From: Sipunculus nudus
Lineage: Eukaryota; Annelida; Sipuncula; Golfingiida; Sipunculidae
DNA length: 64,000 nt
Direction of reading: 5' to 3'
Assembly (NCBI GenBank): GCA_026874595.1
Contig: CM049308.1
Coordinates: 53,145,624-53,209,623, forward strand
The number at the start of each line of letters is the position of its first letter. Position 1 is the stretch's first letter. Both the position numbers and the translations under genes were made by a program. Shown one piece after another: positions 7,912 to 64,000 of the stretch. The notes beneath the pieces were generated by a model that was not told where the DNA came from, did no database searches, and worked only from the letters and a program-made list of their open reading frames with translations.

Positions 7912-7958
7912 TAGATATTTTGTAATGTTTATTACAATTCCTGCTATTATTATTACAG

Positions 7959-29581: not shown

Positions 29582-30596
29582 TTAAAAAGACAAAGATCAT
29601 ATATATCTAGTTCATCCTCGACATCTCCAAACAGTCCACAAAGAGTTAAAAAGTTAATTTCATCTGACAAACAAGATAAACCCCATTGTATAAAAATGGA
29701 AGGTGTGTCAAAGGAAACCTTAAAGAAAATGCTTACAGAGCTTGAAGTGAAAATAGTCAGACAAGTAACTAAGAAATATGAAAAAAACTGTTGAATGTTT
29801 AGAGCCTAGAGTACTTACTCTTGAAAATGAAAATAAAGAAATCAAATCTGATATGGCAAAGCTGTCAGACAGAATTGGTACTCTAGAGGAGCAGTGTAAT
29901 AAGTCAGTCACTGAAGCTACAGATGCCAAGAGAAGGGCGATTGAATTAGAGCAATATTAAAAAAAATCGAGTGTCAGGATATTTGGTGTACTGTAAGTCA
30001 CAGTAACACAGATGGGTCAGAAAATTGTGTAGAATTGGTTAAAAAAACTTTGCAGAGAGAAGCTGAGGTTTGATGTGGATGTGACAGAAGTTGATGTTGC
30101 CCATCCAGTTGGCAGACATCCCAGAGACCCTGACAGTAAGCCAAGGGCCATATTAGTTAAATTTGTAAGGAGGGATGTCAAAAGATCAGTCATGAGAGAA
30201 AGGAGGAAGTTGAAGGGTACAGGTATTGTCATGGCTGATGACCTGTGTAAGGAGTTACATCAACTCCTTAATAGGGCAAGAAAACATCAAATGGTTAAAG
30301 ACTCTTGGTCATTGGATGGTAAAGTTTTCTTAAAAGATTTAAAAGGAGACATCAGAGAAATAAAATATGGTGAATCATTCCAGCAGTTACCTGCATCTAT
30401 CTGGCATTTAAATAACCTGACAATAATGTTTAATTTTGTATGTGTTGAATTTTTTTTTTCATGTCTATTTACTGTTAAGAAGGTCTTCTTTTGTAATCAG
30501 CTGAGCGATACTGGAGAAAGCAAACTTCTTTTTCATAACATTAAATACCCCATACTTATGAGAAAAGTAATTCTATACAAGCAACATGGCAGATAA
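29582..30596 (+). pseudogene. LINE ORF1 (RNA-binding protein), broken
   Basis: The N-terminal part has a Ser-rich stretch, then a helical region and a coiled coil with heptads (LEPRVLTLENENKEIK, around 29800-29850). This is followed by an RRM-like stretch (SSVRIFGV) and a C-terminal part with VDVAHPVGRH and RAILVKFVRR, typical of L1-type ORF1 proteins that coat the element RNA. Lesions include a one-base shift in the A7 run at 29781-29787, a stop at 29958-29960 followed by another about 30 bases on, and a shift near 30055. No intact Met start is visible at the 5' end. The last open segment (30075-30596) ends inside the first codons of ORF2. Confidence 0.85.
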
Positions 30597-33500
30597 TATA
30601 CAATTTCAGGTCCTTTCTTTGAATGTGAGAGGGATAAAAAATTATGTTAAAAGACGACAGATATTTAATTGGTTGGTGAAACACAAAGCACACAATGGGA
30701 TCAGTCTCTTGCAAGAATGTCATTGCATTAAACAAGATGAAACCAAATGGTCTAAACAGTGGCGTAGAAAAATTTATATGTCTCATGGGAGCACCAATTC
30801 ATGTGGAGTATCTATACTTGTCGGTAAAAATGTTGAATTCAAGGAAATTAATAAGAATATTGATAATAATGGAAGATATATTCTAATTGAATGTGAAATT
30901 GAAGGTCTACACTGTATGATTGTTAATACTTATGCACCAAATTATGAATCACAGCAAGTTGTCTTTTTTCAAAATGTTTTTGAGGAAATATTGAACATGT
31001 CTAATGATTTAAATATTGATCTTATCTGGGGAGGAGATTTTAATGTACATCTTACTAAGCATGATGATGATGGAGGCAGAACAAATGTGAAACAGGCTTC
31101 AGTCAATAATCTATGTTCTATGATGGAACTATTAGATATATGTGATATATGGCGTGTAAAACATGAAAATGCAAAATCCTTTACTTGGCGATCCTCAACT
31201 CCTTTAATTCAAAGGCGTCTGGATTATTTTTTTATATCAAAAACTGTTCAGTCACTTGTTGAATATTGTGATATCATTCCTGCCGTACGCACTGATCACT
31301 CAGCAGTTTTGTTAAAAGTAAACAAATCAAAAGATGTCAGCAGAGGACCGTCGCACTGGTGTTTCAATAATGATTTAATTAATGATAAAGAATTTATAAG
31401 TGCTATCAAATATTAAATTACTGTATGGAAAAACGAAGTGAAAGGTGACACAGCAAGATTTACATGGGAGTACTTAAGGTACAAGATTAGAGAGTATACT
31501 ATTAAATATAGTAAATATAAAGCCAGAAAGTTTAAGGAAAAGGGTAAACTATTGGAAGAAGAGATCTCCAAACTAGAACATAACATAAAAAGCACAGATT
31601 CAATAGAGTCTCAACAAGCATATTACAGTATGAAACATAAGTTACAGGATCATTATGATAAGATTACTAAAGGTATAATAGTGAGATCAAGGGCACAGTG
31701 GTTACAACAAGGTGAGAGAAACAAAAAATACTTTCTGAACCTCGAAAAACAAAATCATCAGAATGGTGTGATAAGGACTCTTACAAAAGACGGAAAAGAT
31801 ATTGTGTGTCATGCAGAAATCATGTCATTTATCAAAAATTCTTTTATGGATAAATACCAGAAAAAAGCTATTTATACTGAACAAGAGTCACACAGTTATT
31901 TTGAAGGTCTCCCTCTACATGAGAATACATTATGTGAGTCTGAAGTGAAAGCATGTGGGGGTAAGATTACAATAAATGAGGTACATTCTAGTTTGAAATT
32001 AATGAAGAACAATAAAACACCAGGTAATGATGGATTGACAAAAGAATTCTATTTAGCTTTATTTAGTGAACTTGGTAATTGCTTAACAAATTGCTTAAAT
32101 GGAAATTATGAACATGCATCTTTGACAACTTCTCAAAAGCAAGCCCTTGTCAAGTTAATTCCTAAACCAGGAAAGGATCTTAAACATTTAAATGGATGGA
32201 GACCTATAAGTTTGCTAAATGTTCAACTAAAAATATTGAGTAAAATTTTAGTAAAAAGAATAGAAAAATTTCTTCCAAAACTAATAAAAATTGACCAGTT
32301 TGCTTTCATACAAGGAAGATATATTGGAGAACCAATCAGATTAATATGGGATGTGTTGCATTATACTCAAGTAGAAAACAAGCCTGGAATAATGTTTGCA
32401 GCTGATCTAGAGGCTGCTTTTGATAGTGTCGATCATGGTTTTATGTATGAAACATTGAGGTATTTCGGTTTTTATGATGATTTCATTAAGTGGATTAAAA
32501 TGTTACATAATGATGGACAAAGTTCAGTTTTGAACAATTATTTTCCAGGGGTTATTTTCAGTTAAAAGAGGGACACGGCAAGGTTATCCAATGGCTGCAT
32601 ATATATTTATCTTAATTATTGAAATATTTGCAATCAAAATAAGGAATAATTATAATATAAAAGGAATAGATATTGGAAGTACACATATCAAACTATGCAT
32701 GTTTGCTGATGATACTACAATATTTGTTGAAAATGTTGAATCACTTGGGCATGTACTTACTGTAATTGAAAGATTTGAATATTTTTCTTCACTTAAGATA
32801 AACCGTAGTAAATCAGAGGTTGCGTACATAGGATCTATGAAACATGTTGCAAGACAACTGTATAATCTGAAATGGATAGATTTGACACAGGCATCTATAA
32901 AATTGCTTGGAATATACTTTTCTTATAATAAGGATTTGATTTAATAAAGATAATTTTACACGTGTTGAGAATAACCTGGCAACAACTCTGTCAATTTGGA
33001 AAAGCCGGAACCTATCAATATATGGTAGGGCAGAAGTTGCACGTACGTTAGCAATATCAAAGGTTTACTATGTGACAAATATGTTGATACCACCAAAACA
33101 TACACTGAAAAATCTAAAAAGACTTCTCTGTGACTTTATATGGAGGGGTAAAAGACCAAAGGTCAAATATAGTACTATCATCGGGAAATATGAAGATGGA
33201 GGAATTAATGTCCCAGACATTGAAAGTAAGATACAGACACAGAGAATTATGTGGGTCAAGCGACTTTTTAGTAATCCTTTGTCTATAATAACTGATATAA
33301 TAAATCACAAGTTAAGGAGAATTGGTGGATTAAGGTGTGTCAGAAGTAACTTCAATTTTCATATTTTACCTAAGATTTTACCCAAATTTTATATCAGGTG
33401 ATTTGAAGACTGGGCAATTTATGTGTCATTGAAACCAAAAACACATGAAGATGTTATTTATCAATTTGTGTGGAATAACAAATATGAATGAATGAAATGT

Positions 33501-38325: not shown

Positions 38326-38523
38326 TCACACTGTGTCTGTCGTTCCTCCAGTACGTCCAATTTCCTCCCTTGGTGAGAGTGAGATAAGAAACCGGCGTCT
38401 CCATTCATCAGCAGACGTCTCATTCTGTGAGACCCGTTTTATGGACAGGACGCCATCAATGGTATCATCCATTAGTTTGGCGCGAGCTGGTCCGGCCAAG
38501 GTAAACGACGCTGTCGGTGACGC
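38326..38523 (-). CDS. Receptor last coding exon (candidate)
   Basis: Joins in phase 0 after an acceptor GTGAGTCAG and gives 65 residues with a TGA stop, including ADEWRRRFLISL and ending TTDTV. The pyrimidine tract is weak and the composition is less typical than in the other exons, so the true last exon could differ. If the exon at 39181-39020 were terminal, translation would run into its intron. Confidence 0.5.
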   Translation of the reverse strand, partial: ASPTASFTLAGPARAKLMDDTIDGVLSIKRVSQNETSADEWRRRFLISLSPREEIGRTGGTTDTV

Positions 38524-39411
38524 CTGACTCACAAGAACAGGCTGGAGCAGATTTTTAACAAGTCTCTACAAAACAAACAGAACAACCGGTCTGTCATCAA
38601 TGGGAAGTTCTTACTGTTCATTATTATCTAAATCTTATCTCAACAAAGCAATCAATGCAGCCATGGGTAAACTTCCAAATCGTTCAAAATTAGCCGCCAT
38701 GTCAAATTTGCTCGGTGTTCAATATTGTAGGAAATATACACTGGAAACTGATAAGTGAATTCTCTATGTTTCAACTGACATGCATTATTGTTTTTTTCTG
38801 TATGAAATATGATAATTCTTGCCCTTAAGGAGCTTTGGACCTTTGGCTCCATGTTATATTGTTTGTATTTTGCGAAGGACTCGGAACGGATTTTTAAAAC
38901 ATTTTTTTCCCATTAATTTGGAACACATTTTATGGTCTCTGCGGGTACGCCTGAATCAACAGCAATGACCAGGTGTTGACAAGTGACACGTCCCTGTGTA
39001 CATAACATGTTTTTATTACCTTTTTCTTTTGCTTTTCTGTCTCTGCTTCATCAACTGTCCATTCTTCAGTTGCTTGAACGTGGATTACCAGAGACGTGTC
39101 TTGCTGCCAAGGATTTTTTCCTGGAATTCTCATCACAATAGAATACGGGAGGAGTTGGCAGTTCTCTTTCTCAGACAATCGCTAAAAAATGGCGCAGTAA
39201 TTAACATATTGCAACAGCAAAAAAGCTTATACGTGTTAAAAATGATCTGGTTTAATCTCATGAGAAACATAGAGCTTCGCAAAATGAATCGGCAATGTAT
39301 ACAAGCATACTATGTTCATAAAACTTTTTTTTCGATAAACAATACGAATGAAAGTTTTCCTCGTTTATCATAGAATAAATGAAGATTTTTTATTGTTGCT
39401 TAAGACCATTC

Positions 39412-39466
<55 letters not shown>

Positions 39467-42400
39467 TATATATATATATATATATATCTGTGTGTGCGTC
39501 TCTTTGTATGTGTGTCCGTGAATTCATTTGATGAATATGATCTAATTATTCTTAATTATGGATATCCTTCCCGATATGCATTAGTCCTAGATTCAAAATT
39601 TACATATCAAATACGCCAGTTTCACCCATAAACACTCACATCTACAAAGTCTGATGATACTGTATGTTTACAGTACACGTACAGGTTCAATCTGATACGT
39701 GTCAGACCGTCGCTTATTCCGTCTTCTGTTAACCCCGTTTCGAGAATGCGTTTTGCAAATAATACAGTCTGAAGTATAGGTTCTTCAACTTTGGTGATGC
39801 TGAAAATAATTCCTGACTTTTTCATGCTGATTTTGATGCCGTCTTGAGAAGCCCGCCAGCTGGTCTCGCCCACATCTGACTTCTGCTCTCCATTATGTGT
39901 GATATCTTTATCCGAATCAATTCTCTTTCTTACCTTTTCTTCCATTTCTACACTCATTAAGTGAGACACCAGAGATTTATTCTTCTCCACAGTGCCCTGT
40001 TTTATAACCAAAGATTCTTTGCCTAAAGTGTTAGATAATTTCATGTTGAATACAGGTACAGTAATCTTTAAAACTTTCTTCAAAATAACTGGAAAAGACG
40101 TTTGCACTATCGGAGCAACAAAGACTTGGCCAAGCTCTAGAAGGTCTGTGAATGCTTCAAAGTCTGTTATCGACTGACACTTGAAGCTGATCATCTTGTT
40201 ATCATCAATGGCCGATTTAGGGATGTTAAAAACTACTTTAGAATCCGCATGGGAAATGGTAACCCCGGCCTTGCCGACATAGCAAGCTCTCTCCCAAGGT
40301 ATCTCGTCTGACGCTGGCTCTTTAGGATTGCTCAATTCAGGAGAGGCCATCACATTCAGTGAGTTACTTAAAATAGACTGCAAGAGATTAATACAGGCTT
40401 GTTGTTCAGGTTGTAATAATTTTTGTATAACTCGAATAAATCACGGTTACACAAATGATCGTTTCAAAATATCATTTTTTACCCATTTGGGAAAGGTTAA
40501 CGTTATTATCTTTTTTAATATCAAGTTTTGAACATTTATATCGATATTTAACAGGATACCCACGGTGATAGGATATATTTAACCAGCTCTTAGTCGTTAC
40601 GCCTGCAGACAAATTTGATTCCAGATTTATTTTTATAGAGAACGTTCTCATTATCTAGTAACGACTTCGTACTCATGCTCAGATGTTCCGGGTAGAAATG
40701 AGCGAAAAAAAGACAAACAAACAAAAATCTTCAGTAAAGTGATACCTTCTCGTGGTAAAGTGTAAATGAGAGTGTAGTCTTTCGATTCTTCCCGAGAAGT
40801 GGATCATACTCTTGTGTAGACGTGTTTGGTGTGATTGTCAGTATACAACTGACAGTCTCACCGGATGAACCGCCCTCGACGTAAAATTCCGCGGCGTCTC
40901 TCTGAACAGGCAGCCGAGTCAGGCTCTCAAGGATGGCAAACACAGGCCTAGAAATCTTAACCTGTTTGGATCAAATTTCAAATGCATAAAAAAAATTTTT
41001 CTTCATCGCCTACGGATGCTGCTATTTTTTTATTACTAGGTAAAACAGGGATGTAAATAAATGGTGTTCTGTATGCCAAAGATGAGGTGATCCAGAAAAT
41101 GTAATTTTATTAAGTAGATTTATTATTGAACTGAAACGGTGTCAATGATTTGGGTCAAGTCAGATAAAGAACAAATGGAATGTATATATCCGAGGTCGCG
41201 TTCGCCCGATTGACGGATAAAATGATCAAATGTGTTGACCACTATACGATAAATCTGTTGAATGAACAGCATGCAGAAAAACATGTGCATGTTGTTACAC
41301 GTTGCTCATGTGCATTATTAATTATAGAGATAAAACATTTTTAGGAAAGCAGGCCTCCGCCATGTGGGCGGTCCATAATGTGGGGTACTACGCAACCCAG
41401 AATTTTATTAACTTATCGGCCCATATTCCCAAGTTAACTGGTGCATATGTTCCCTAAAAAGTTGCGTTCACTTATTCGGCCTATATTCCTATGTGCACAC
41501 GAACAAGAATGAACACATATCCTCCTGATTGAAGCAATAATGACTTCGGTACTCACAGTTTGGATGTCTGCGGATGTGGAAGGCACAATTGGATATTGTA
41601 GCTCCATCTCAATCTCGCTGATTTCGTCAACTGTTTCAGGGTTTTCGATGTTAATAGTGCCTGTGCCAAGTGGGGTTGTCTTTTCTTTATTTATAAGTTC
41701 CTGAAGTAAAATAACACCTTGACGGTCTTTTACGGTGTTGTATAAATCACATTTGAAAGACCAGCAGTTGCTACATTTTATACACAATAAACAGAGATTT
41801 GGAGTTATAAGCAACAATATTGTGACTTTTTTTAAATTTATACACAGATTAGAACGTGGTATTATTTGTTGCCGAATCTTTCAAAATGTTGAGCTTGAAG
41901 AATCGTTTGCGCAGATTCTTAGTTTGTAAGAAAAACACGTGCCAGTAAGCTTATGTATGGTCAACAAAGCAAGTAGCAGCTTCTTCTTGAAATATCCTTG
42001 TAATCAATTGAAACCTTACACCCTGAAAAAACAAGTAGATTATGTAAACTATTTTATATAACCTGCAGATGGGACCCTTTAGTATCATCTTCGCTCAGAA
42101 AATAAACCTTGACCAAAAAGGACGACGTGGCTTCGTGATCCGGTTTCTTCTGGGCTTCAGAAAATATAATCACTTGTAAGTTGGTCCCTGTGAATCCTTC
42201 ATTCTGACATTTATTCCGAGGTTTCACCAGTGTGCACTGGATCTCCTTGAAAATGAACACAGTTATATTTTTTTACCTTCGACGTATGAAGATATTCATA
42301 TAACATCACAGAGCGAAATGTGTTGTTAAACCTTCAAAGAACATTTTTTTTAAATTTAATGTTTCATTTTATGGTTCCAGTTCATCTCTTGGCTTTCATT

Positions 42401-45400
42401 ATTTCATAAAGTTTTCACAATTTGATTCATGTTAAGCTGTCAACAGAGAAAATGTGTCTTTATTCAAACATTGAGGGATGTGTTACCTCTTTTCAATGAG
42501 GCTTCTAGATCTATATAAACATTTGCACGCCTTAAACATTAGAGGATGTCGAAAGGTACACGTGTATCTCTGAATTTAAATTTGAATTTAACAGTACAAT
42601 AAACAAAAATACATTTACAAGTATTATGATGGCCAGTGCTGTATTTATATAAGGACTAGGCGGACTGCAGCCTCATTATTTCATGATAGCCCTCTGCTAA
42701 TGAATAACTCTTTGGGATTATATTTATTGTGGCGCCTGTTAAGGGCATAATTTACATGTTCCAAAAAATTGCTCTACTTGTTTTATATAACATATTATTT
42801 GAATATTATTTAAATAATAGTAACGGCAGTGACTGTTCTGTGCATGTTAACCTCTTCATCAGTTCCATACTATTTTTAACTTGTTTAAGGTAATAAATTT
42901 TTAAACAATCTTTTTATCATATCGTTATACTGTTGACGGCTTCATATATGCGGGCTTTTCCGTGTTTCGTGAGGATTCCATTTCCGCTTTCTCACAATAC
43001 AAAAAAAACCTTATACATAGAGTATAACCGCTATTTTCTTATTTAAATATATCAAATATTATGTGCACAAAATCTTAATAAAAAATATTTTTTTTTACTG
43101 GTACACAATTGGTAAGATCTTATATTATTTAAAATATCAGTCTCTGAACATGCGCAACCTATTACTATTCATAATTTCAGCCTTTTATTTTCAACTTTGC
43201 CGTCAGGGAATGGCAGTCCTAATGGTGGAAAGATAATTACCTTGCTGTGGTGGACTATGACAGCTCCCACTAGAAGGATCAGCAAAAGGACCCCGATGAA
43301 GCCTACGACCATAGGAATAAAATGCCATGTGTCCCAGAGTCGGTCTTTTCCTAAAATGTACAGATGGATATTACCTTTGCCTCCGCCAGGAGGGTATGCG
43401 TTCATCCCCGTTCGTGCGCGTGTGTGTGTTTGTTCACAACATAATTCATGCAATCATGAACGGAAATTTTCAACGCATTTCGGGAATGGGCCAATGAAGA
43501 TCGTTTAGATTTTGGTGTGGATCCGCCACATAATTCGGAACCAGGAATGTCATAAAGGAATATTCACAAATGCAGAGTAATTTTTTTACAAACGAACCAG
43601 GGAATCTGGCCGAATAGGTGAATGTAATTGGGGTAACTTCTGCACAAATGAACCTTGGAATATTGGAAGAATAAGAGACATTAAACACGTTTTGCGGAGC
43701 ATCCTACATTAAGGACGTACCACGAACATGGTGGAGGCTTGCATACGAAACCTCAAGCCTTCTTCCGTATTTAAGCGTCATCTTCAAACATGATATTCAA
43801 ATACATATCAAATAAGTATGTTTATATAATTGTAAAAAAAGATTTGTTTACTCACCGTCGAGACTAAGATTATTATCTCCAGAATGCAGAGCGCCCGTAA
43901 GGCTACTATACTGGCTTTCATCTGTAGGAAAAGATGTAGTATCAAGACAGAGCTTTATTATTTGGGTCATCTTTTAAGTGACCAAAGGCCTGTAGCACCT
44001 CGGAAATCTTAAAACAATTTAGAAAACTATTTCGAATTTAGAATTAAAAAGTAAACACTCGAATATTAATTTGATACGGTGGCTTGTCAATAATACTGAA
44101 GTATAAATTATTGAACTTGCTTTTATAACACAGAAAGTGGTGGCGCTTATGGCAGGCAGCCGATCGCAACTTGACAGTAGCGCTCTCTCTCTTTAGCACG
44201 TGACACTGATCGATTTCCTTTCCATCGCTCGGTAACCCTGAGAAGGAATGATATATTTATTCCATTTCTGCAGTTTCTTTTTTTTTAAATTGAAACAATA
44301 TATTACACTGTCATCATGTTTTACAGTAACAATACTTTCTATACCAATGGAACATTTTAAAACTTTGATGTTAAAGAAAATCCAGGGCGATTTCAAAGCA
44401 AAAGTTTTACTGCTATTATAGTGCTAATGTTAGAAACCTGTTGAAATATGCTCTAAAATATATAGTACCTTGTCTTCAAGAGTATCTATTAAAATATATT
44501 AAAAATGTCGTTACACAAAATAGAATTCCCATGAATGCTTCGCTTGCATGAATATCAACAGTGTCCCAGTAGAGATCCTTTATATCTTCCTAGATTTGAA
44601 GATGGTGTATAAACTGTTTAACGGGCGATGATGATGACTAATGTACCGTTAATTTACAGCTTTTTTACGGAACTGTTCTGTCACCATTATAAACCATGCA
44701 ATATAATGCAACATAAGAGATTTGAGATTTGACAGATATCTGTGACAGATATCTGTGAAACATTCACGAAACATGTCTTTTTAATGATTGATGTCATGTA
44801 ATACACCATTATTGCTGCCAATGAAACTGGAATGTTATATACCGAATTTATTCTTAGGCGTTATAACCAAGGATTATAAGGCCAAAATAAAAAAAAAGGT
44901 ATGGTTCTCAGGCACTTTTTTTTCAGAAATCAATGCGGGCGGGAGCTTTTTTTAATTTAAATTTTTTTGGTATGTTTCGATAAAAATGTCAAAAAATAAG
45001 GAAAAAACATGAAAATAACAGTTTTATTTTGCTTAATAAGTAAAAGCACTACAAAACAAAGGAAATTGTATGGTTTTATCTTCTTGAAAGAAAAGTCGGA
45101 GCGGGAGCAGCTCAAAATTGGAAATTTTGTATTGAAAATCAAAATAAAAAGTTTTGATGCGGGGGTTTAAAATTGATGCGAGCGGTTCCTGAGAACCATA
45201 CCTTTAATTTTTTTGACCTAATGGAAGATTTAAATTTTTTCGGCTTACCTGGTGTTCTACTCCTCAAAGAGGTGTCGCCACCGGCCGACGATATGTTCCC
45301 CGCCACCCAGACAGTGGTCCATCTCCTGCGCGTCATCTCAGCTGATAAATTTCCCAAACGCCCAAGCTGCTGATAGAGCAGTACAGAGGCGCCCTCTTTT

Positions 45401-45467
45401 GTCTGACAATAGCGTAAAGCTTCTCGCATGTCTGCCCTTATGTTAGCAGTGAAGAAAATTTCAACCT
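38326..45467 (-). CDS. Single-pass membrane receptor with ZU5-like and UPA-like cytoplasmic region (nine exons, 5' end incomplete)
   Basis: Exons, 5' to 3' on the minus strand: 45467-45249, 43921-43856, 43350-43241, 42245-42063, 41700-41557, 40961-40746, 40377-39640, 39181-39020, 38523-38326. Every junction is GT-AG and all phases agree, giving about 678 residues ending in TGA. The first exon is extracellular and includes ALRYCQTKEG and TTVWVAGNIS, faintly C-type-lectin-like. Exon 3 holds a membrane helix (FIPMVVGFIGVLLLILLV, about residues 107-128). Exons 4-6 are cytoplasmic with no domain I recognise. Exon 7 has a ZU5-like pattern: GKAGVTI, FNIPKSAIDD, VAPIVQTSFP, LKITVP. Exons 7-8 (RIRLNLYVY, YSIVMRIPGK) look UPA-like. 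ZU5-UPA pairs occur in UNC5 receptors, PIDD and ankyrins. A death domain, usual after UPA in UNC5 and PIDD, is not apparent. Ligand and role are unknown. Confidence 0.75.
39020..39181 (-). CDS. Receptor exon 8 (UPA-like)
   Basis: Acceptor ATTTTTTAG, 54 codons in phase 0, donor GTAATA. It continues the beta-rich stretch of exon 7 with LLPYSIVMRI and SLVIHVQATEEW, and ends in a charged Lys-rich segment. Its in-frame fit supports the GTGAGT donor at 39639 rather than the TGA 16 bases into that intron. Confidence 0.7.
39414..39488. repeat. (TA)n microsatellite in receptor intron
   Basis: TA run interrupted once by CAG at about 39463. Confidence 0.9.
39640..40377 (-). CDS. Receptor exon 7 (ZU5-like)
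   Basis: 246 codons, phase 0 at both ends (acceptor CTCTTGCAG, donor GTGAGT). Roughly residues 35-115 of the exon match the ZU5 pattern; an acidic and basic linker (SDKDITHNGEQKSD) follows, then a second beta-rich half with SWRASQDGIKISM. It would be intracellular. Confidence 0.8.
40746..40961 (-). CDS. Receptor exon 6
   Basis: 72 codons in phase 0 between CAAACAG and GTATCA; beta-rich (EFYVEGGSSGETVSCILTI). No domain recognised. Confidence 0.8.
41405..41530 (-). mobile_element. Possible degenerate copy of the GGGCCAAGGAAG repeat
   Basis: On the minus strand GGAGGATATGTGTTCATTC and AGGAATATAGGCCGAATAAG resemble blocks of the copy at 43382. Shorter and more diverged than the others; lies in the intron between receptor exons 5 and 6. 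Confidence 0.4.
41557..41700 (-). CDS. Receptor exon 5
   Basis: 48 codons in phase 0, acceptor TTTTACTTCAG, donor GTGAGT. Acidic linker-like sequence (PETVDEISEIEMEL). Confidence 0.8.
42063..42245 (-). CDS. Receptor exon 4
   Basis: 61 codons in phase 0, acceptor TTTTCAAG, donor GTTATA (a weaker donor). Contains EIQCTLVKPRNKCQNEG and FLVKVYFLSEDDTKG. Confidence 0.75.
43241..43350 (-). CDS. Receptor exon 3 (transmembrane helix)
   Basis: Phase 1 in, phase 0 out. Encodes about 22 hydrophobic residues preceded by DTWHF and followed by HHSK, which fits a type I orientation. Confidence 0.85.
43382..43690 (+). mobile_element. GGGCCAAGGAAG dispersed repeat, copy 3
   Basis: CCGCCAGGAGGGTATGCGTT, TTGTTCACAACATAATTCAT, CATTTCGGGAATGGGCCAAT and TTTTGGTGTGGATCCGCC follow in the same order as in copy 1. 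It sits in the receptor intron between exons 2 and 3. Confidence 0.7.
43856..43921 (-). CDS. Receptor exon 2 (juxtamembrane)
   Basis: 66 bases, phase 1 at both ends, acceptor TTCCTACAG, donor GTGAGT. Ser- and Asn-rich stalk sequence (ESQYSSLTGALHSGDNN). Confidence 0.75.
44895..45205. mobile_element. 311-base terminal-inverted-repeat element (MITE-like)
   Basis: The ends AAAGGTATGGTTCTCAGG (44895-44912) and CCTGAGAACCATACCTTT (45188-45205) are perfect 18-base inverted repeats. The interior is T- and A-rich with GCGGGCGGGAGC and GAGCGGGAGCAGCTC. It lies in the receptor intron with its right end 43 bases from the donor of exon 1. No coding capacity. Confidence 0.8.
45249..45467 (-). CDS. Receptor first supported exon (extracellular)
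   Basis: Phase 1 at both ends, acceptor TTATTTACAG, donor GTAAGC. 72 codons, including one Cys in ALRYCQ and aromatic TTVWVAG. The spacing recalls the first half of a C-type lectin-like domain, but the second half is not seen downstream, so this is only a suggestion. Confidence 0.7.
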
Positions 45468-45529
45468 CTGTAAATAATGCAAAAGCATGTTTTGTTGCTT
45501 TTCAGGCATTTTTCGGTCATGCACTATGC

Positions 45530-46095
45530 GAAATCACAAGATGGTTAAGAAATAACAAACACAAGATGATTAGCAACTAAAAATACACAAGATTGATAAC
45601 ACATTAGAAAAATAAGATGATTAACAAGTAACAAACACAAGATGGTTACCAAATAAAAATTCAAAATTTTGTTATCAAATTAGAAAAAACAGATGATTAA
45701 CAAGTCATAAACACAAGATGGTTACCAAATTACAAAAATAAGATGATTAACAGGTAACAAACACAAAATTATTACCAAATAGCAAACACAAGATGATCAA
45801 CAAATAACAATCAAGATGATCTACAGATAACAAACACAAGATACGATTAACAAATTACAAACACAAGATGATTAACAAAAAAGAAAATCAGCACAAGATG
45901 ATTAACAGATAAAAAAGACAAGATGACTTACAAATGACAAACATATGATGATTAACAATCAACAAACACAAGCTGGCTTACAAATAACAAACACCAGGAT
46001 GATCAACAAAAATCAAACAGAAGATGATTTACAAATCACAAACACACGATGATTAACAAATAACAAACACCAGATGATTAACAAATTACAAACAT
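45530..46095 (+). repeat. Minisatellite, about 20- to 28-base unit
   Basis: About 20 imperfect units of ACAAGATGATTAACAAATAA plus a short AACAAACAC spacer, drifting in length and with scattered substitutions. Lies upstream of the first supported receptor exon. Confidence 0.9.
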
Positions 46096-47207
46096 ATACA
46101 TATCATCATCTGAATCTCTTTTTATGACTTAAACGTTATTGAATGCAATGTAACAGGGGTTTAAAATGTTTCATTTCAATATCACTATCTAGAACCCTTT
46201 CACAATTTTTCCTCTGTTATCGGGCAGCCGTCTACGTCTGTCTTTGTGTGTGTTTAAGTTTATCAAGCGTCTCTGTCCATATATATGTTCGGTATCCCCT
46301 CAGGTTCCGTCAAATTATTTTAGTTCGTTGGGAGTGTCTGATTATCTGGGTGTTTCTCTGTGTGTTTATCTGTATATTACGTGTCATGTGTATTTTTCTT
46401 CGTGACGACTGGTTTTAGTCTGCTACTCATGTAGATGCTTCATGCAACGGCCCATGTTGCTGAGAAAATGGTAGGGGGACAGTCCAGAAGAGTAGTGTCG
46501 GGGGCCCTGGCAAAGGCCCAAAACCCTCCCCGAAACATTGTTTCCCGCTTAAATCTCCGGACATCCCCAAGATTCTCCAATTCAAGATGATAATATTTTT
46601 CTTCAGTTCCATTCCAACTACATATTATGGAACATGTATTTTCATTATACGAAGGTTGGTTTTGTTCACTTTTCCAAACTTTGTTTATGATCATTTTGAT
46701 TTAAATCATCGGCATTACAGATATTATACAACATGTTATAAGTAACCACTAATGACAACTCAATGAATTCCTTTACTAATACCAAACCCTAAACTTCAAG
46801 GTGCATAACTGTATGATTATTAAGAAAATACATTAAATAACCTGTGATCTAGATGACAGAATTATCTCGAAATGGCCATGTTAAAAAATGCGTTTTATTC
46901 CTCTTAAAGTGAAGGGGACTAAAGGTACTTTGTCCAAACAACTACAAGAAAAAAAAGGGGAGGGGAAGTTTTATGCAGACACGCCGAGTGAGATATTTTT
47001 GTACGTGTATATACGTTTATGTTCACCATTACTCACTCATGAAGGGGATTTAATGATAAACGGGATCGCATAAGTAGTAAGCCCGTCGGCCGTATACGCT
47101 GCCCTTATCCGTGTTAACCTTATTTATCGTCAACCGACAAGAGCCATTGACAGTATAGCACACTTGCACATACTTTGATTGTTAAGCACCAGGGAATATA
47201 AAAGGAA
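46096..47207. other. Stretch with no supported gene
   Basis: An open frame on the minus strand at about 46440-46630 (with WNGTEEKYYHLELENL) has an acceptor-like TATGTAG but no good donor and no phase that clearly fits the neighbouring exons. It could be an unassigned exon. Confidence 0.3.
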
Positions 47208-48570
47208 CCTATTCACATACCAGGTATATTAAGTTTAAGTGATGTATGACGTTTTCTCCTTTATCAAATTTTTTAATTATTGGATTAATCACTCATGTTC
47301 ATGTCGAAAAACCACCTCCCGACTCGTAAATACTTGAAACTTTTCAACTGGAATAATTATACATGTACTTATGTGTACTTATTCATTTCGTAAGATTGTG
47401 CGGTATCTTGTCCACAATGATACTGATGGACCCAAATAGAAATGGTAACCTATCTGCGAAAGAGCGAAGTCATATGGCCCCATCTGAAATGGGATAATCT
47501 TGATATATTTCATACATAGTAACTAACCCTCTAACATAGTTTCCTTGGCCTGACTATAACACGTGGTTTTGTTGGGTCGAATGGCACTTGGTGGCGTGTA
47601 TACCTCCGCAAAGGCAAAATAAGAACAACAATGCGACTGGAACAGTTCCTTATCTGGCTTCGCATTGAAATGTATTGAACTAAATTTTCTTTGACCAGTG
47701 TCCAAACCCTTCACACAGATTTGTAAAAACGGTTGAATGTTTTTTGCATAATATTGCTAACAGACCTCTTTACTCTGTCATATAATTCCAGTTTGTTTCC
47801 CGATGTTACTATATGGATATAAATAATACTAAGTGAACAAGTAATCTTTCATGGTACGATACCTATCGCGATACTTCATTCATACTAGGATGCAGGGCAG
47901 GATACATAGTAATGTACGTGTACCACAGCTGCATTCTGGTGCACTAGAAATAAAGCTTATTACAGAATAGGTCGTTGAGAAGTTGCCGTTAAACTTATTT
48001 TTCATTTTCCATTGACGTTTCATGTGGCCAAGATATGACACATAGAAACTATTTATTTATATATCGTACAACACTTTCAGTCATATGATAAAGACGTGCA
48101 AATATATTTAAAGTGACATAATCATTTGCGAAAATATGTGTATAACATCATGCTTTTAGTTAATTTTGACTAGGTACAAACTATGCCGGAAAATGGGCAT
48201 ACTGTTACCTGTATTATAATAGTTTTAAATACTTTTTTCTGTGTTTAGTAAACACAGTCCATGCACGTGTGTGTCTACCACGACATGGTCCAATATTAAG
48301 CACGAGCAACTACCCAAAAGGAGATCAAACATGAAGAAAAAACACGAAAGACACAGGTTTGATGGTTGATAAAATCTAGATTTGTTATGATGCGCGGTGC
48401 GGCCACCAGGTGGTGTGCGTGCTCTATTTATGTTTTGCGCCACTAATCGCGCCCGATACAAGCTTATTCGTACTTGTATACAGGAGTAACCAAACGCTTT
48501 TAGAACGAACTATTTACAAATAACAATATGTTGTAATCAGAACACATTATATACCTGGTATGTGAATAGG
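47208..48570. mobile_element. Segment bounded by a perfect 22-base inverted repeat
   Basis: 47208-47229 and 48549-48570 are exact reverse complements (cores CCTATTCACATACCAGG and CCTGGTATGTGAATAGG), with partial matches extending about 10 bases outward. A 1.36 kb transposon-like unit is the simplest reading, but no transposase or duplication of the target was seen. Confidence 0.5.
47528..47708 (-). CDS. Candidate upstream exon of the receptor
   Basis: Open 60-codon frame with a Cys pair (SHCCSYFAFAE) and a further Cys (NKTTCYSQAK). It ends GAG G before GTTAGT, a phase 1 donor that would join in frame to the exon at 45467. Its acceptor (GTGTGAAG) is poor and in phase 0, which does not fit the signal-peptide exon at 49324. 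It also lies inside the inverted-repeat unit 47208-48570, which weakens the call. Confidence 0.3.
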
Positions 48571-49266
48571 CCCCTTTAATATATCGATACACGGTCTTGA
48601 TACGATATCTGACTACGTGTCGAGTAACTTACAACCCCAGTTACCGCCCTATAATCAAGGGTCTTGCAACAACCCTAACATATCTTGAAAATATTATTTT
48701 ACTACAACACAGTAAATTATTTCAATTTCCATATATTATAAAATTAATCACTTAAAGTGAATTATCTATAATGCAATTGAATGTTATCGTTATGATGTTT
48801 TCAAAAGTTTTCTTTTTAAAACATGTTTTTGGTATTATTATGGAAGAGCCTTCAGCAACCCCATCCTCGCTTTGAGAAATCCTTGATCCAGCACTGGATT
48901 ATGTATATCCCACCGCGGTCACCCGCCTTAAATGAATTAAGTTGAGTAGGATATCTTTAATACACATACACTGTATCTTGATACCGAGTGTGAATGGTGG
49001 ACATAATCCTTGGGTGTCCAGTCTTCACGTTAAAGTATTCCAGCATTCATCCTTTGTTTAGAAAATCATGACAGGATAATTTTTTCTAGTTATTTTTAAA
49101 TAACTATTGCGCTATGGACTACAGTCACGAAAGTCATATCATCGTAAGTTAAATTATGCGCTATATTACCTCTAAGGTTAAATGAACACATATACACATA
49201 CCTTAATCATTCTATAATTCATATATATAATTTTATTTTTATAATGTAATATAATATGTAACTGAC

Positions 49267-49324
49267 CAGTTTTTGCATCCTGACCCAGAGCAAGCAACAA
49301 CAGAAGAAACACCATAGGACCCAT
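49267..49324 (-). CDS. Candidate signal-peptide exon
   Basis: ATG at 49324-49322 encodes MGPMVFLLLLLALGQDAKT followed by a split Gly codon and GTCAGT donor (phase 1). The short hydrophobic core followed by small and polar residues is a textbook signal peptide. It lies on the receptor's strand, 3.9 kb upstream of its first firm exon. A linking exon was not identified, so ownership is inference. Confidence 0.45.
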
Positions 49325-51438: not shown

Positions 51439-52774
51439 TCAGTTTATTTCATTATAGAAGTTGAAACCTGTTTCCTGGTACAGGACTTCCAACAAATCAT
51501 TAGCTCGCTTACTCTGTTCTTCTGTGAATAGGCTCACCCAGTCCCCTATTATACCTTTCCTCATGAAGTTAGCCCCTTCAACCAGATTGGGATAAATGTC
51601 CAAAGAAAGACTTGGATGTTTCTTAAGGTTGTCAAACCTCATGAAATAGGAAATGCGGTCTAATGCATTTGCTTGAAGAGGTTTCCCAAGGAAATTTGCG
51701 ATTCTCTGGATCCACTCTCTCTGTTGAAGTTTAAGGTCTTCATACTTTACAAAAAGTATGTTGATGTCATCTCGTTGATTCCAGAATGACTTGACATGAT
51801 CATACCAACTTCCATACATGACCTTTCCTGCCAAAAATGCTTCTATAAATACCTCCCATTCTCCATTCCATGGCCCGAGCAATTTATAGACTTTATGAAA
51901 ATGATAAAACGATACAGCAACATCTTTTGGGTTTCTCACTATGTAAATAACTTTTCCTTTCTGTTTTGACAGGCCTCCAGGTAAAAAGTTGTATGAGATA
52001 TGACTGTACAACACGGTAGGGTGTGATATAGTTTTCACATGAGGGAAGTTCATATCAAGGTGATTAGCCAGTTTAGGTGAAGAGTTTTCAAATCCATTGA
52101 GGTCTTCTTGACTAAATATTGCCCCTACAATTCTTCTGAGCCAGTTGTTTCCTGAAAAATATTGGATATTTAGATATAACAGGTCTTCTTCCTACATGTT
52201 TTGCTTCTAACAGATCAGACACTGGTGAAACATCGGGGAAAACTTCACAGGTAACTTCTGTTTTAAAATATTCTGATTACTAAATGTTTATTTCATGATT
52301 ACCATTTATATGTCTTTAGGATACTGGCGCAGGTCTTTGTCGATATTTGGATCTTTGGAATTAATACTTTTAATAGAACTATCCCCAGTATATATGTGAT
52401 CAGATGTGTGTGTGTAAAAGAGCGAGAGAGAGAGATACAGAGAGACACAGAAATAGATACAGAGATACACAGACAGAAATATAGATAGATAGATAGCTAG
52501 ATAGATAGATGCATGATAATACGCTATATCTGGTTTATGCATCAAAAGTGAGATGCACAAGAAAACCGTATGTCTGTTTTATGCAGCGTCAATCAAAGGT
52601 AAGAGCCAATTTACCAGATTTGCAATAGCCACACAGGAAAACATCATCTTCGTGGAGCTCAAGTTGCCTTATTTCATCCAGGTATTCCCTTTTTGTGTTA
52701 AAGTGAAACGTTACCCCATTAACCACATGGCTTCCCTCTATGTGGTAGGGGAGTTTAGTTAACTGTTTCGCCAT
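51439..52774 (-). CDS. Cytosolic-type sulfotransferase A (two coding exons)
   Basis: Predicted to transfer sulfate from PAPS to a hydroxyl or amine of a small molecule. Exons 52774-52615 and 52151-51439 join in phase 1 to give 290 residues, the usual SULT length. The PAPS 5'-phosphate loop is CKSGNNWLRRI, split by the intron within its Gly codon (donor GTAAAT, acceptor TTTTTCAG). The likely catalytic His is in YSHISYNFLP. The 3'-phosphate site is RNPKDVAVSFYHF, and the C-terminal PAPS loop and dimer region is FMRKGIIGDW. The chosen start is MAKQLTKLPY, aligned with the paralogue. An in-frame ATG 81 bases upstream would add a hydrophobic N terminus. Substrate cannot be told from sequence. The paralogue at 61481-62995 has the same exon plan and orientation, so this is a tandem duplication. 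Confidence 0.93.
52405..52512. repeat. GA/GATA microsatellite in sulfotransferase A intron
   Basis: GTGTGTGT, then GAGAGAGAGA, then ATAG tetranucleotides. The intron of the paralogue also carries a GA run. Confidence 0.9.
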
Positions 52775-54060
52775 AACTTCAGATTTATATCTGAAAGTTT
52801 GTGACCAGCAAATCAAAAGTGCAACAATGAGAATGAGATACAATAAAACAGACAAATCCTACTTCCGTTTCAATCTGTATACCTTTGATACTTATTTTGG
52901 CTATTTGCCTGAGTATGTGTTTGAATATGGATTGTGTTTCATTGTGATATATCAATTACGTATGTCTGTCTGTCAGTTCGAGATATACTGGGTGGTCTCT
53001 GAAGGAAGCCTCTTGAACCCGTACTGTGATATAATGGTGTTGTTACCATGAAACAAGTTAGAGGTTACAACCTAAAGACAAACAGACAAAGGCTTTGAGA
53101 GCTAAACAGATGCACGTATGGTTATTTATTTGTGAACTCGGTCATAATAAGTTCGTTGTCCTATATACTATTATGCATATGAGCGGTTAACTATGCATGC
53201 AAGTCAAATTGTTTATTGCCCCTCAGGCTTACATAAAAGTATTGCATGAACAAAATAATGTTTACAACCAACACAAGATTTCTGTAGTTATATAAAATCC
53301 TGGTATTTATTCTGTTTGTGTAAGCGTTTTACAAAGGCCAAGGATGTTCTTTTGATACAACTACAAACTGCACAGTAGCTTTATGCAATAAATGGTAATT
53401 TTGTTGCATTTATTCGAAATTTGACAAAAGTATGCCCGCTTCTCATGCAAACATATACTCCTGTGAGTATATATATGTATATTTACTTATTTAAGTAAAC
53501 TGTGTCATGTGAAAATGTTGCATATATATTATTTATATATATATTTATATATAAATTGACATAAGTAAAAGGATATTTTCGCACGACCTAAGGAGGTTAT
53601 ACAAAAAGTATATTTGCAAGCATGTTCCTTTGCTTGTTGAGTAAATTGTGTGTTGTGATTTGAATTTTTTTATTTGCAAATATAAGTAAACTGTAGTAGT
53701 TTGTTGAAAAAGGATTATGACTAGAGTTATAATAATTTAAACAAGAAATTCAGTCTTTGTACTAAGCATTATCTGCATTTAAGACAATAAAGGAGTGATT
53801 TTTTGGGGGGTTAAGCAATTCATGTTAATACTTATTGAAAGTGTATGAAAGCCTTCTTCACAGGCATCTCTAATTACTTGATTAAAATATAAAAGTCATT
53901 TACACCACCGCATATATTCCTGCAAAGTCATATCAAAAATACAATTAACCGGTTCAGCTTCATCATACACAGCTCAAATTGTTTAATTCTCCCTCATTAT
54001 ATTTATCAGGTTCTTAGAATTCTGTCTAGAATGTTCACAGGTTGTTACCGCTTTAAGCTC
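52775..54060. other. Sequence upstream of sulfotransferase A
   Basis: Presumed promoter and 5' region of the minus-strand gene, followed by AT-rich non-coding DNA. No defined promoter element could be assigned. Confidence 0.35.
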
Positions 54061-54600: not shown

Positions 54601-54770
54601 ATGGGTGCACACAACACAAAAACTAGAATACGGGTAGTCAACAAGCGACAACGTGTATCCGCCATATTCCGAGTGGGACGGGTGAAGTGAGGCATGGAAT
54701 GTGGCAAGGGGAAATAGAGTGAGGTGTGTTGCATAATAGCTTGGACGTCTGCAGCCTAAATGTGTATGAA

Positions 54771-56079
54771 GGTTGCGCCACCTACCACAAAATCCAGAAA
54801 GCTGTCCAAGTTGTATACATATGCGAAATTTTTGGCAGATAAGTCAAACCACTACTTGTATATGAGTGATTTTATCCCACAGCAGACAAACAGAAGGACG
54901 CTGTGCAAAAATGGTGACAGGTTGCGCCACCAAATTTTTGTATGATTAAGAGCTATGTGAGATCTATACACATGCAAATATCAGAGGGATATGTCAAACC
55001 AGTCCTGAAATATAAGCCTGAATGTCTGCAGCGTATACATAAATGTAGACGGCGTCACCAGGCACAAATCCAGAAAGCTATCCAAGATGTATATATCTGC
55101 AAAATTTTAGGCAGATATGTCAAACCACTGCTGAGATATGAGTGATTTTATCCCACGGCAAACAAACAGTGGGACACTGGGCAAAAAGGGTTGCAGGTGG
55201 CGCCACCAGTTTTGCGTATGATAAAGAGCTATATGAGATCTATAAACATGCAAAATTTTTGCCCAATCGGTCATATGGTTTCCGAGATATAAGCTAGGAT
55301 GTCTGCAGCGTAAATATAAATGTAGGTGGCGCCACCTGTCATAAAATCAAGAAAGCTGTCTAGGATGTATACACATGCAAAATTTCAGGTGGATTAGTCC
55401 AACCAATGCAGAGATATGAGTGATTTTATTCCAAGAAAGATGAACAGACGGACGCTGTTCAAAAATGGTTGCAAGTGGCGCCACCATTTTTAGTGTATTT
55501 TATAAAGCTATCCAAGGGCTACATTTGTGCAAAATTTTTAGCCTGATCAGTCAAATGGTTCCCGAGATATGTGGGTTTATGTGTGGAAACAGACGTACAA
55601 ATAGACGCATGGCAGAGAGGAAAAGTCAGAGGTCATCCAAAATTGAGGACGCAGCAGTTTACATGTGACCCGACTATAATTCTGAATTTCAAGAAATTCT
55701 GCAAAGTGGTTACGGAGGAGTTCTCCAGAAACCTATGCGGCGGTGGCAGTTGCGGCGGCGGCGGCGTCCGACTGAAAACATAGTATCCGCTAAACTCTGT
55801 ATTGGCAGATACAATGATTGTAGCTGGCACCACCAGTCTTGTAAACAAAGAAGAGATATATACATATGCCCAATGTCAGACTGATATGTCAAACCCCTCC
55901 CGTGAAATAAGCAGGGACATACACTGTGCAAAAATTATTGTAGGTGGCGCTACTAGTCTTGTACACTATAAAGCTACCCGATATGTATAAACATGCCCAA
56001 TTTTAGGATTATGTATCAAATTCCTCTGTAGAAATAAGCAGGCGCATACACTGCAAAAGTGAATGTAGGTGGCACCACC
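54771..56079 (+). repeat. Satellite array with palindromic GGTGGCGCCACC box
   Basis: Boxes (perfect or near-perfect) lie at 54771, 54920, 55048, 55196, 55325, 55474, then 55823, 55943 and 56068. The first six are spaced 149, 128, 148, 129 and 149, so the repeating unit is a dimer of about 277 bases made of two related monomers. Between boxes recur GAGATCTATACACATGCAAA, GATATGTCAAACCA, GAGATATGAGTGATTTTAT and ACAAACAGACGGACGCTG. Perfect boxes: 55196-55207 and 55325-55336. The part between 55486 and 55822 has diverged. Confidence 0.9.
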
Positions 56080-61480: not shown

Positions 61481-62693
61481 TTAATTATAAAAGTTGAACC
61501 CTGTTTCCTTATAGAGGACCTCTAACAAATCATCAGTCCGCTTACTCTGTTCGTCTGTAAATAGACTAACCCAGTCACCTACGATACCTTTCCTCATAAA
61601 GCTAAACCCTTCAAGCATATAGGAATTATTCTCAAGTGAAAGTTTTGGGTGTTTCTTCATCTGGTCAAACTCCATTAAATATGATATGCGGTCTAATATG
61701 TTTGGCTGCAGAGATCTTCCAAGGAAATATGCGATTCGCTGGATCCACTCTTTCTGTTGAACTTTAAGGTCTTCATACTTTACGAAAAGTATGTTAAGGT
61801 CATCTCGATGATTCCAGAATGATTTGACATTTTCATACCAACTTCCATATATGACCTTTCCTGCCCAAAATGCTTCAATAAATACCTCCCATTCTCCATT
61901 CCATGGCCCTGACAGCTCATTGGCTTTATGAAAGTGATAATAAGAAACAGCAACATCCTTTGGATTCCTCACCATATAGATAACTTTTCCTTTGGAAAGG
62001 GACTTGGGCAAGTAATTAAAAGCCAGATGACTGTAAAGCACCCGAGGTGGCGAAAGTGATATTACATGAGGGAAATTTAAATCGAGATGATTTGCAAGTT
62101 TCGGTGGAGATCTTTCAAATGTGTCGAGGTCGTCTTGATTGTAAATCGCTCCTACAATTCTTCTTAGCCAATTATTTCCTGAAAGAAAAAAAAATCTATA
62201 TACTTTATTCATAGTAAATGATTAATTAATAAGGATACCACTTTAAAGTATAAAGATTGTGTCAGTCTGAACACTTGTTATTTCAATACTATAATGTCCA
62301 GTGTGAAATGTGTGTGTCGGTTTGACGATTTTCTTAAATTACATATTTTAAATTTGATGACCACTGCGATCTCCGGTGTATTACGCCTGGTAACACAAAT
62401 TGAGATTTTAAAAGTGAGAATGAGAAAATGAGAGACAGAGGAGGGGTTGTGGTCAGAGAAAAGAGGGGTCACACCGTTTCACCACTCTGGAGGGTAGGTC
62501 GGCACAAACAGCGCTGGCTAAAATACCAACCGCAAAGTTTAATAATAAATCATCCTGTGGAACACGGGCTTCATTGATTTATGAGACTAAGAAAATCGTC
62601 GCGACACGTTGTAACGTTGTACATGATAACTAGCTGTTATTTGTTGTTGACAAACATGTGAGTGTCCAACTTTGCCGCAGCAACGAGCCACAC

Positions 62694-62740
<47 letters not shown>

Positions 62741-62995
62741 AGACAGACAGACGAAGACAGAAAGAGATAAAACTGATAATTTTGCAAGACATTTATTATG
62801 CACGATTATATACAGTGAATCCACTTTACCTGATTTGCAATATCCGCATAAGAAAACATCATCTGCGTGGATATCAAGTTTTCTTATTTCTTCCAGATGT
62901 TCCTTCTTCGTGTCATAAAGAAAAGGTACACCATTTACTACATGACTTTCCTTTATGTGGTACGGGAGCTTTGAAAAAGGTTCGTCGTTCGCCAT
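61481..62995 (-). CDS. Cytosolic-type sulfotransferase B (two coding exons)
   Basis: Paralogue of the gene at 51439-52774, same strand, about 9 kb further upstream. Exons 62995-62830 and 62178-61481 join in phase 1 to give 287 residues starting MANDEPFSKL and ending FNFYN. Functional sites match: CKSGNNWLRRI (intron inside the Gly codon; GTAAAG donor, CTTTCAG acceptor), YSHLAFNYLP with the presumed catalytic His, RNPKDVAVSYYHF, and FMRKGIVGDW. Compared with A, it lacks two residues before GKVIY and three at the C terminus, and gains two near the start. Typical SULTs have a TTW or TNW version of the loop (YPKSGTTW); here both paralogues have Cys for Pro and NNW. The frame stays open for about 77 codons upstream of the chosen Met, but that part does not resemble gene A and is probably 5' untranslated or promoter sequence. 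Confidence 0.93.
62696..62740. repeat. (GA)n then G run in sulfotransferase B intron
   Basis: AG run of about 36 bases followed by nine G. Confidence 0.95.
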
Positions 62996-64000
62996 AACTG
63001 AGGGCTTACCGACGTGCTTTTTTTTGGTTAGAGAAAAGTGACTGTGCAAAAATGAGAAAGGAATATACTTTAAACCGAGCGGCTCCCTTTGTGTGCTAAT
63101 CGTTTTCAGTTTATGAGCTTTCAACAGACCGATTAATTCTTTGAGCATGCGTTTGAATAAGCGTAATGTTTCATGATGTGATTTCAGTGGACTGTCAAGA
63201 CTTGACAACCGTTTACTCTGTAACAAGTAGATTTGATGAAAGTCAGAATAACCTTAAGCTGCCATAACTTTTATGAGCATGTTGCCCGTGCCACGCTCGG
63301 GCGCTGTATTATAAATATGTTGGCTTAGGTGTAACAGGTCCCTCTAACCCTAATCAACATATGATCAAACATGAACCTGAATAAGTAAGTGCATGTTTTC
63401 ATTCAGTAACATAGGACACAAGTCGTGACTTATCTCTATGTGGTGACTCGACGTTCCTGGACTCAGACGTGTACTATGACTCAAAGTGTTGGTACTTGAT
63501 AATGGATTTAACAGGTTTTGCTGTTTTCCACGGTCAACGGTTGATGCATTTGTATTTACGCACACCATGAATATGAATGAAACAAGGAATTGTGTTTGTG
63601 GGATGAGGGGTTAGGTACACATCCCTGTGCTTCTATAGTTAATTTTTTATAACACAGAATATTAATCTACATTCATTGAAGTCTTCCCATAAACTCAAGA
63701 TGTCTGGTTTTTATATAACTTTACTCTTTAGGTACTAGTGGAAGGGGGACGCTGGGAGATGTTTTGAAAGTTACACTATGGACGTTTTAAGGCATGATTA
63801 TAACGAAATATTTTGGGTAAATAGGCATTCAAAACAGAAACAGTCTGACTTATGATATGCAACGAAGTTTACGGGATTAATGTAAAAAGTAAACCAATAT
63901 TTTATATAATTCTAATCATATCAAGACCAGATATGGACAAACAAGACATTTTGATACTAGGGTTTCAACGGATATTCAGGTTCTCAACAATTACAGTTTG
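62996..64000. other. Sequence upstream of sulfotransferase B
   Basis: Presumed 5' region and promoter of the minus-strand gene; no defined element assigned and no other gene seen to the window edge. Confidence 0.35.

Follow-up and report, generated by a model that had tools for sequence, protein, structure and literature searches.

What kind of receptor is encoded on the minus strand of this stretch of Sipunculus nudus DNA, and how might it signal? The window, meaning the whole stretch analysed (64,000 nucleotides, C3:53145624-53209623), contains a gene that an earlier note had described as an orphan membrane receptor with a ZU5-UPA-like tail and no visible death domain. The joined gene quite probably encodes a signal peptide, one C-type-lectin-like domain and a membrane helix, followed by a cytoplasmic UPA-ZU5-UPA region without a death domain, and belongs to a lectin-ZU5-UPA receptor family as a divergent member outside the family's main cluster. 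Its product is predicted to be a single-pass type I receptor.

Gene structure

Eleven exons on the minus strand (49324..38326) were joined in phase to give 750 codons with zero internal stops. The receptor gene is probably intact, with an exon count of 11. The exons are listed below; for those assigned to UPA, the number of shuffled sequences doing as well is given for pairwise comparison (of 2000) and for profile comparison (of 400).

Exon 1, 49267..49324, minus: putative exon with start codon and signal peptide MGPMVFLLLLLALGQDAKT; ends in phase 1
Exon 2, 45249..45467, minus: C-type-lectin-like domain, first part (Cys 40, WVAG)
Exon 3, 44121..44237, minus: C-type-lectin-like domain, second part (Cys 104, 121, 129)
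Exon 4, 43856..43921, minus: stalk with N-glycosylation sequons
Exon 5, 43241..43350, minus: transmembrane helix; ends in phase 0
Exon 6, 42063..42245, minus: putative UPA-1, first part; shuffles 0/2000 pairwise, 0/400 profile
Exon 7, 41557..41700, minus: putative UPA-1, middle part, assigned by position and phase only; alone not significant (1635/2000 pairwise, 74/400 profile)
Exon 8, 40746..40961, minus: putative UPA-1, last part; shuffles 53/2000 pairwise, 1/400 profile
Exon 9, 39640..40377, minus: ZU5 (core about 40293-40030) and putative UPA-2, first part; UPA-2 part 626/2000 pairwise, 6/400 profile
Exon 10, 39020..39181, minus: putative UPA-2, middle part; shuffles 6/2000 pairwise, 0/400 profile
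Exon 11, 38326..38565, minus: putative UPA-2, last part, short tail and stop, without a death domain; shuffles 2/2000 pairwise, 232/400 profile

The earlier note had joined nine exons with GT-AG borders within 38326-45467. The minus strand and the in-phase joining were confirmed, but ten exons were found in that interval, with an eleventh upstream (49324-49267). Acceptor and donor borders are present as described, except that exon 3 possibly ends at a GC donor (44121); a GT donor (44097) lies 24 nt further on, and the frame is kept with either. Since an acceptor in phase 1 precedes the exon at 45467, the gene must have a further exon upstream. Exon 1 was the best of four candidate rows from an upstream scan of 45.6-52.5 kb. 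It encodes an evident signal peptide and fits in phase, with a moderate donor (6.4, versus 3.2-11.0 at eight other donors).

The first four exons end in phase 1 and the next six in phase 0. GC content is 45% in the exons of the receptor gene versus 33.5% in its introns. Random intron pieces of 738 nt were open in some frame in 0/2000 draws; for short pieces, an open frame is common by chance (65% at 58 nt). The membrane helix is single and strong, with a mean hydropathy of 3.2 across 19 residues, and is followed by a cytoplasmic part of ~560 residues. Both agree with the earlier reading of one helix and about 550 cytoplasmic residues, and the short tail after UPA that it described is likewise seen in the joined protein. 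No paralog of the receptor gene was found within the window, where off-gene matches occurred only at E 1.3 or worse.

Could these exons instead be split between two neighbouring genes, one for a lectin receptor and one for a ZU5-UPA protein of the cytoplasm, or be a silent relic? Such a division would suit the 3.8 kb intron 1, which holds a 25-bp minisatellite (~22 copies, window 45535-46094), the predicted status of exon 1, and the gap of ~1 kb between the membrane exon and exon 6, in a gene model drawn from sequence alone. Phase is nevertheless continuous over ten junctions with no stop, and the same order of lectin, membrane and ZU5 exons is seen at other loci. We consider both forms of this explanation improbable.

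C-type-lectin-like ectodomain

The Pfam Lectin_C model matches the ectodomain over its whole profile (5-107 of 107) at 18.6 bits and E 0.0034, with a cut-off of 22.6. C-type-lectin-like domains have four conserved cysteines, four being the number of the short form, and the ectodomain contains exactly four. It appears to be lectin-like, which the earlier reader had missed. The observation that it does not resemble the Ig and thrombospondin layout of UNC5 was nonetheless sound, as no Ig or thrombospondin match was obtained in the ectodomain with Pfam, which returned only Lectin_C and one sub-threshold unrelated family. The usual calcium/sugar motifs of C-type lectins are EPN/QPD and WND; neither was seen when the joined protein was read by eye. 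Signal peptide, lectin-like domain and membrane helix are shared with invertebrate transmembrane C-type lectins, to which the window gene adds a large ZU5/UPA tail.

A genome search with this ectodomain gave no significant relative (best E 0.47). Searches of PDB sequences by phmmer, with the whole protein and with the ectodomain, returned unrelated matches only (E 0.4 or more).

ZU5 domain in exon 9

ZU5 was not detected by Pfam scans of the whole protein or of whole exon 9. A comparison with PF00791 and PF17217 was proposed in the earlier note. With the 86-residue ZU5 core alone, ZU5 (PF00791) was the sole Pfam family, at 13.8 bits and E 0.07 and below the cut-off of 21; PF17217 gave no match. 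Against solved domains, pairwise shuffling yielded z 4.7 for the UNC5B ZU5 (0/300) and z 3.9 for the ZO-1 ZU5 (1/300). Ankyrin ZU5 domains scored z 2.5 and 1.8, and the off-target pairing of the core with the UNC5B UPA z 2.7. Negatives say little in this comparison: as controls, the UNC5B ZU5 reached z 5.3-5.5 against ankyrin ZU5 domains, but one ankyrin ZU5 went undetected against another (z -0.5), and the UPA of UNC5B was likewise missed against that of ankyrin (z 0.5).

Single-sequence AlphaFold2 models were of low confidence, with a mean pLDDT of 34.1 for exon 9 and 46.8 for the ZU5 core. A fold search with this low-confidence core model gave no match at E <= 0.001 and no ZU5 entry in the best 50 of 185 rows. 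An hhalign comparison of the ZU5 part of exon 9 with an ankyrin ZU5 covered 11 columns, out of register, at a non-significant probability of 2.2.

We also searched the organism's own genome (1.43 Gb, 153 contigs) with the 560-residue cytoplasmic part. At E <= 10 this gave six own places and one off-locus match, C12:19291092-19291331 (E 0.945), which falls in an exon whose ZU5 is scored by Pfam at 49.1 bits. The ZU5 core of the window gene aligns to the ZU5 of this C12 relative with z 12.4 (0/1000 shuffles). With a profile built from 29 relatives in the same genome, exon 9 scored 41.4 bits, against a maximum of 6.3 among 500 shuffled sequences. We regard the prediction of a ZU5 in the 738-nt exon 9 as firm despite the sub-cut-off Pfam score, because the sole off-locus match is a true ZU5 exon and the own-genome profile scores 41.4 bits. 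The earlier placement of ZU5 in the large exon is upheld by the same two results. A search of viral contigs for relatives found none.

Probable UPA stretches before and after ZU5

The earlier note had proposed a UPA-like part after ZU5. Exons 6-8 contain a further UPA-like stretch (UPA-1) that its reader had not recognized. For comparison, the UPA of the C12 relative was assigned by its position after ZU5, as the end of the ZU5 exon plus two exons joined in phase 0; its score against the UNC5B UPA is only z 1.4. UPA-1 aligns to the relative's UPA with z 5.7, and the stretch after ZU5 (UPA-2, the end of exon 9 plus exons 10-11) with z 5.3, each with 0/2000 shuffles, so that the proposed UPA after ZU5 is supported, if unevenly. 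In both alignments the first exon border coincides with that of the relative and the second lies within a few residues.

UPA profiles were built from family exons, with 27 members for the first part, 15 for the middle part and 9 for the last; in the middle and last sets, some members had been chosen on weak scores. With these, four of the six window exons were equalled in 0, 0, 1 and 6 of 400 shuffles (exons 6, 10, 8 and the end of 9, respectively), and the twelve other exon-profile pairings gave 95/400 or worse. Exon 7 failed in both tests, exon 11 with the profile and the end of exon 9 in the pairwise comparison. UPA-1 and UPA-2 compared directly show no similarity (z 0.1-0.4). The Pfam UPA model (PF17217) matched neither window stretch nor the relative's UPA, and is hence a weak test. 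The domain order UPA-ZU5-UPA is supported but not proven, on weaker and uneven evidence.

That ZU5 and UPA are both chance resemblances is scarcely credible. Sub-threshold Pfam scoring and low-confidence single-sequence fold models are what such resemblances would give. The UPA stretches were equalled in 0/2000 shuffles twice, with exons uneven, and for ZU5 the shuffle tests (0/1000; 6.3 versus 41.4 bits) refute chance.

Several ZU5/UPA modules in a row are also found in the ankyrin ZU5-ZU5-UPA arrangement; the window gene differs in its order, UPA-ZU5-UPA, and in having no ankyrin repeats and no death domain. Passages of PMC8195603 describe invertebrate TRADD-N proteins fused to a FIIND or a UPA-ZU5 module. 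These resemble the window gene in carrying ZU5-UPA outside vertebrate proteins, and differ by their TRADD-N adaptor domain and by not being lectin receptors.

Relatives in the same genome

The C12 relative has Lectin_C exons of 24.0 (over the cut-off), 21.2 and 18.6 bits, then a membrane helix, ZU5 and UPA. When its ZU5-UPA exon was searched against the genome at E <= 1, 45 matches were obtained, 41 of them on C12 and one being the window gene (E 0.26). Pfam ZU5 gave 29 matches at E <= 0.01, 22 of them on C12, and the window gene was not among them. Combining both sets of matches, and excluding the window gene itself plus ten entries that were second halves or broken or short pieces, gave 35 ZU5-like family loci (33 on C12 and 2 on C3). 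Four of the loci kept have an E above 0.01 in the relative-exon search, two of these being over the Pfam ZU5 cut-off. With these loci in its own genome, the receptor is no orphan.

Lectin exons like those of the C12 relative occur within 15 kb upstream, in the same orientation, at no fewer than 14 of the 35 loci, or at least 13/34 without the query's own gene. In other orientations within 15 kb, the matches listed place lectin exons downstream on the same strand at 0/35 loci and, on the other strand, upstream at 0 and downstream at 1. Control loci, shifted randomly by up to 400 kb and given random strands, averaged 1.2, the highest of 2000 draws being 5. Among the matches listed, 21/35 family loci have no lectin exon within 15 kb. 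These counts use 72 of 150 lectin rows, those taken for a dispersed repeat (open frames of ~329-445 aa) having been dropped by eye. Nine upstream flanks were read (L010, L041-L048). A membrane helix near the ZU5 exon was seen by eye in five (L010, L041, L042, L044, L048) and lectin exons in three (L010, L041, L042); local lectin seeds revealed no lectin exons in the six flanks L043-L048.

The window gene follows the family plan, with lectin exons, membrane helix, ZU5 and UPA in order and a ZU5 exon ending in phase 0. The earlier suggestion of a lineage-specific receptor gains from this likeness to a receptor family that is expanded in the organism's genome. Its lectin part is presumably that of the family. 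Membership rests on the tail and the plan, because its own ectodomain has no significant genomic relative; for the same reason, its combination of lectin and ZU5 parts could have arisen separately from that in the C12 genes.

These comparisons suggest that lectin-ZU5-UPA genes form an undescribed family of possible immune receptors. The ~33 ZU5-like loci on C12, part of them with lectin ectodomains, constitute a candidate recognition repertoire. Domain surveys can miss such a repertoire because divergent members like the window gene fall below Pfam cut-offs, and the architecture may stand unremarked in annotated animal protein databases. No description of a fusion of ZU5 with a C-type lectin was found in the available passages of open papers, where those holding both ZU5 and CTLD were PRR or NLR surveys.

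Absence of a death domain

A death-fold domain follows the ZU5-UPA switch in UNC5, PIDD, NLRP1 and CARD8. Pfam gave no Death match in the joined protein and none near the gene, consistent with the earlier statement that no death domain is visible. Death matches occur at 31 places in the genome at E <= 0.01. The sole one on C3 lies at 69.75 Mb, with none near the window gene or the C3 loci, and none of the 33 C12 loci has one closer than 323 kb. No CARD was found near the family or the window gene among the matches listed (best 150 of 650 candidates scored). On C2, by contrast, two ZU5 genes are each followed by a Death match in the same orientation, at distances of 8.9 and 14.5 kb. Near another ZU5 gene, which lies on C4 and which we guess is perhaps of the ZO-1 type, there is no Death match.

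The UNC5 netrin receptors are also type I receptors with a cytoplasmic ZU5-UPA, and in UNC5CL / ZUD a membrane helix is likewise followed by ZU5-UPA. In contrast to UNC5, with its Ig and thrombospondin repeats, the window gene has a C-type-lectin-like ectodomain, an extra UPA before ZU5 and no death domain; from UNC5CL / ZUD it differs by the lectin ectodomain and the lack of a death domain. A worn UNC5 or UNC5CL copy that had lost its ectodomain and death domain would account for ZU5-UPA in a membrane receptor and for the z of 4.7 to the UNC5B ZU5. It is very unlikely given the intact 750-codon frame, the lectin-like ectodomain, a lectin-ZU5 gene as the sole off-locus genomic match and the separate existence on C2 of ZU5 genes with a downstream Death match.

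Possible self-cleavage in relatives and proposed mechanism

The end of ZU5 reads T-x-HFT-QF in 9/29 relatives (C12: L011-L014, L017, L020-L023), in a part where the alignment is loose. CARD8 and NLRP1 self-cleave at SF/S and PIDD at HF/S, according to passages of PMC3210808, and the HFT of the nine relatives sits at about this place. The window gene reads IIFSIT at the end of ZU5, without the histidine and with neither HF/S nor SF/S. The family resembles the FIIND of NLRP1/CARD8 and the ZU5-UPA of PIDD in its ZU5-UPA and in the HFT of these relatives. The window gene differs from all three proteins in encoding a membrane receptor, in having no CARD (among the matches listed) or Death match near, and in lacking the histidine.

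By analogy, we tentatively propose, with somewhat less than even confidence, a lectin receptor that signals by ligand-driven UPA clustering under ZU5 restraint. The lectin-like domain would bind a protein or other non-classical ligand, and ZU5 would hold a UPA in check, as happens in NLRP1/CARD8 between the fragment bearing ZU5 and the UPA-CARD fragment. Ligand-driven clustering would then free UPA surfaces, which may self-associate and recruit an effector in trans. Passages of PMC7794386 report that the N-terminal fragment of NLRP1 and CARD8 represses the UPA-bearing fragment. The same source states that UPA lowers the assembly threshold of both CARD8 and NLRP1, the concentration for CARD8 filaments falling from 15 to 0.25 uM. 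For the window gene itself, we infer expression, ligand, restraint, clustering, effector and immune role.

Alternatively, the same anatomy may serve adhesion or scaffolding, the UPA-ZU5-UPA tail anchoring the receptor to cytoskeleton or junctions with no switching. Ankyrin (ZU5-UPA) and ZO-1 (ZU5) employ these domains as binding modules, the alignment of the ZU5 core with the ZO-1 ZU5 reaches z 3.9, and there is no Death match in the window gene or near the family. The T-x-HFT-QF at about the self-cleavage place in 9/29 relatives points instead to a switch in those relatives; the window member lacks the histidine. We hold such an anchoring role to be possible but rather unlikely.

The clustering mechanism can be extended, more speculatively and in a form that we consider doubtful, to the whole family. 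The C12 genes might be a chromosome-clustered lectin-receptor repertoire with inflammasome-type ZU5-UPA tails lacking a death-fold, some of them self-cleaving at HF/T. The window gene would then be a doubled-UPA form whose assembly relies solely on contact between UPAs, a membrane-bound equivalent of the NLRP1/CARD8 scheme. If true, a lectin-receptor family with the switch but without a death-fold domain would uncouple the assembly of UPA from signalling through death folds, and one could then test whether contact between UPAs suffices for a signal.

Other features of the window and genome

Upstream of the receptor gene, tandem sulfotransferase-like genes lie on the minus strand (window 51442-52858 and 61484-63253; Sulfotransfer_1, ~188 bits each), and a 276-bp tandem repeat in three copies spans window 54738-55570. 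On the plus strand are a globin exon (window 7915-8229, 53.4 bits) and a LINE-type retrotransposon with endonuclease and reverse transcriptase frames (window 30033-33398).

Elsewhere in the genome, C12:20913631-21125072 is densely packed with lectin exons resembling those found in the ZU5 receptors, although no ZU5 match is listed for ~90 kb around. Most numbered contigs also carry dispersed, near-identical single open frames with a C-type-lectin domain, dozens in all and mostly of ~360-380 aa, plus lectin-like frames of 441 aa. Single CARD open frames (230, 275 aa) lie ~13-25 kb from such copies, as compared by eye (for example at C5:166389-184826, C11:145330-170273 and C7:29985586-30010029). 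Drawn from the best 150 of 2756 Lectin_C and 150 of 650 CARD candidates, the dispersed copies look like a large multi-copy element carrying lectin and CARD genes.
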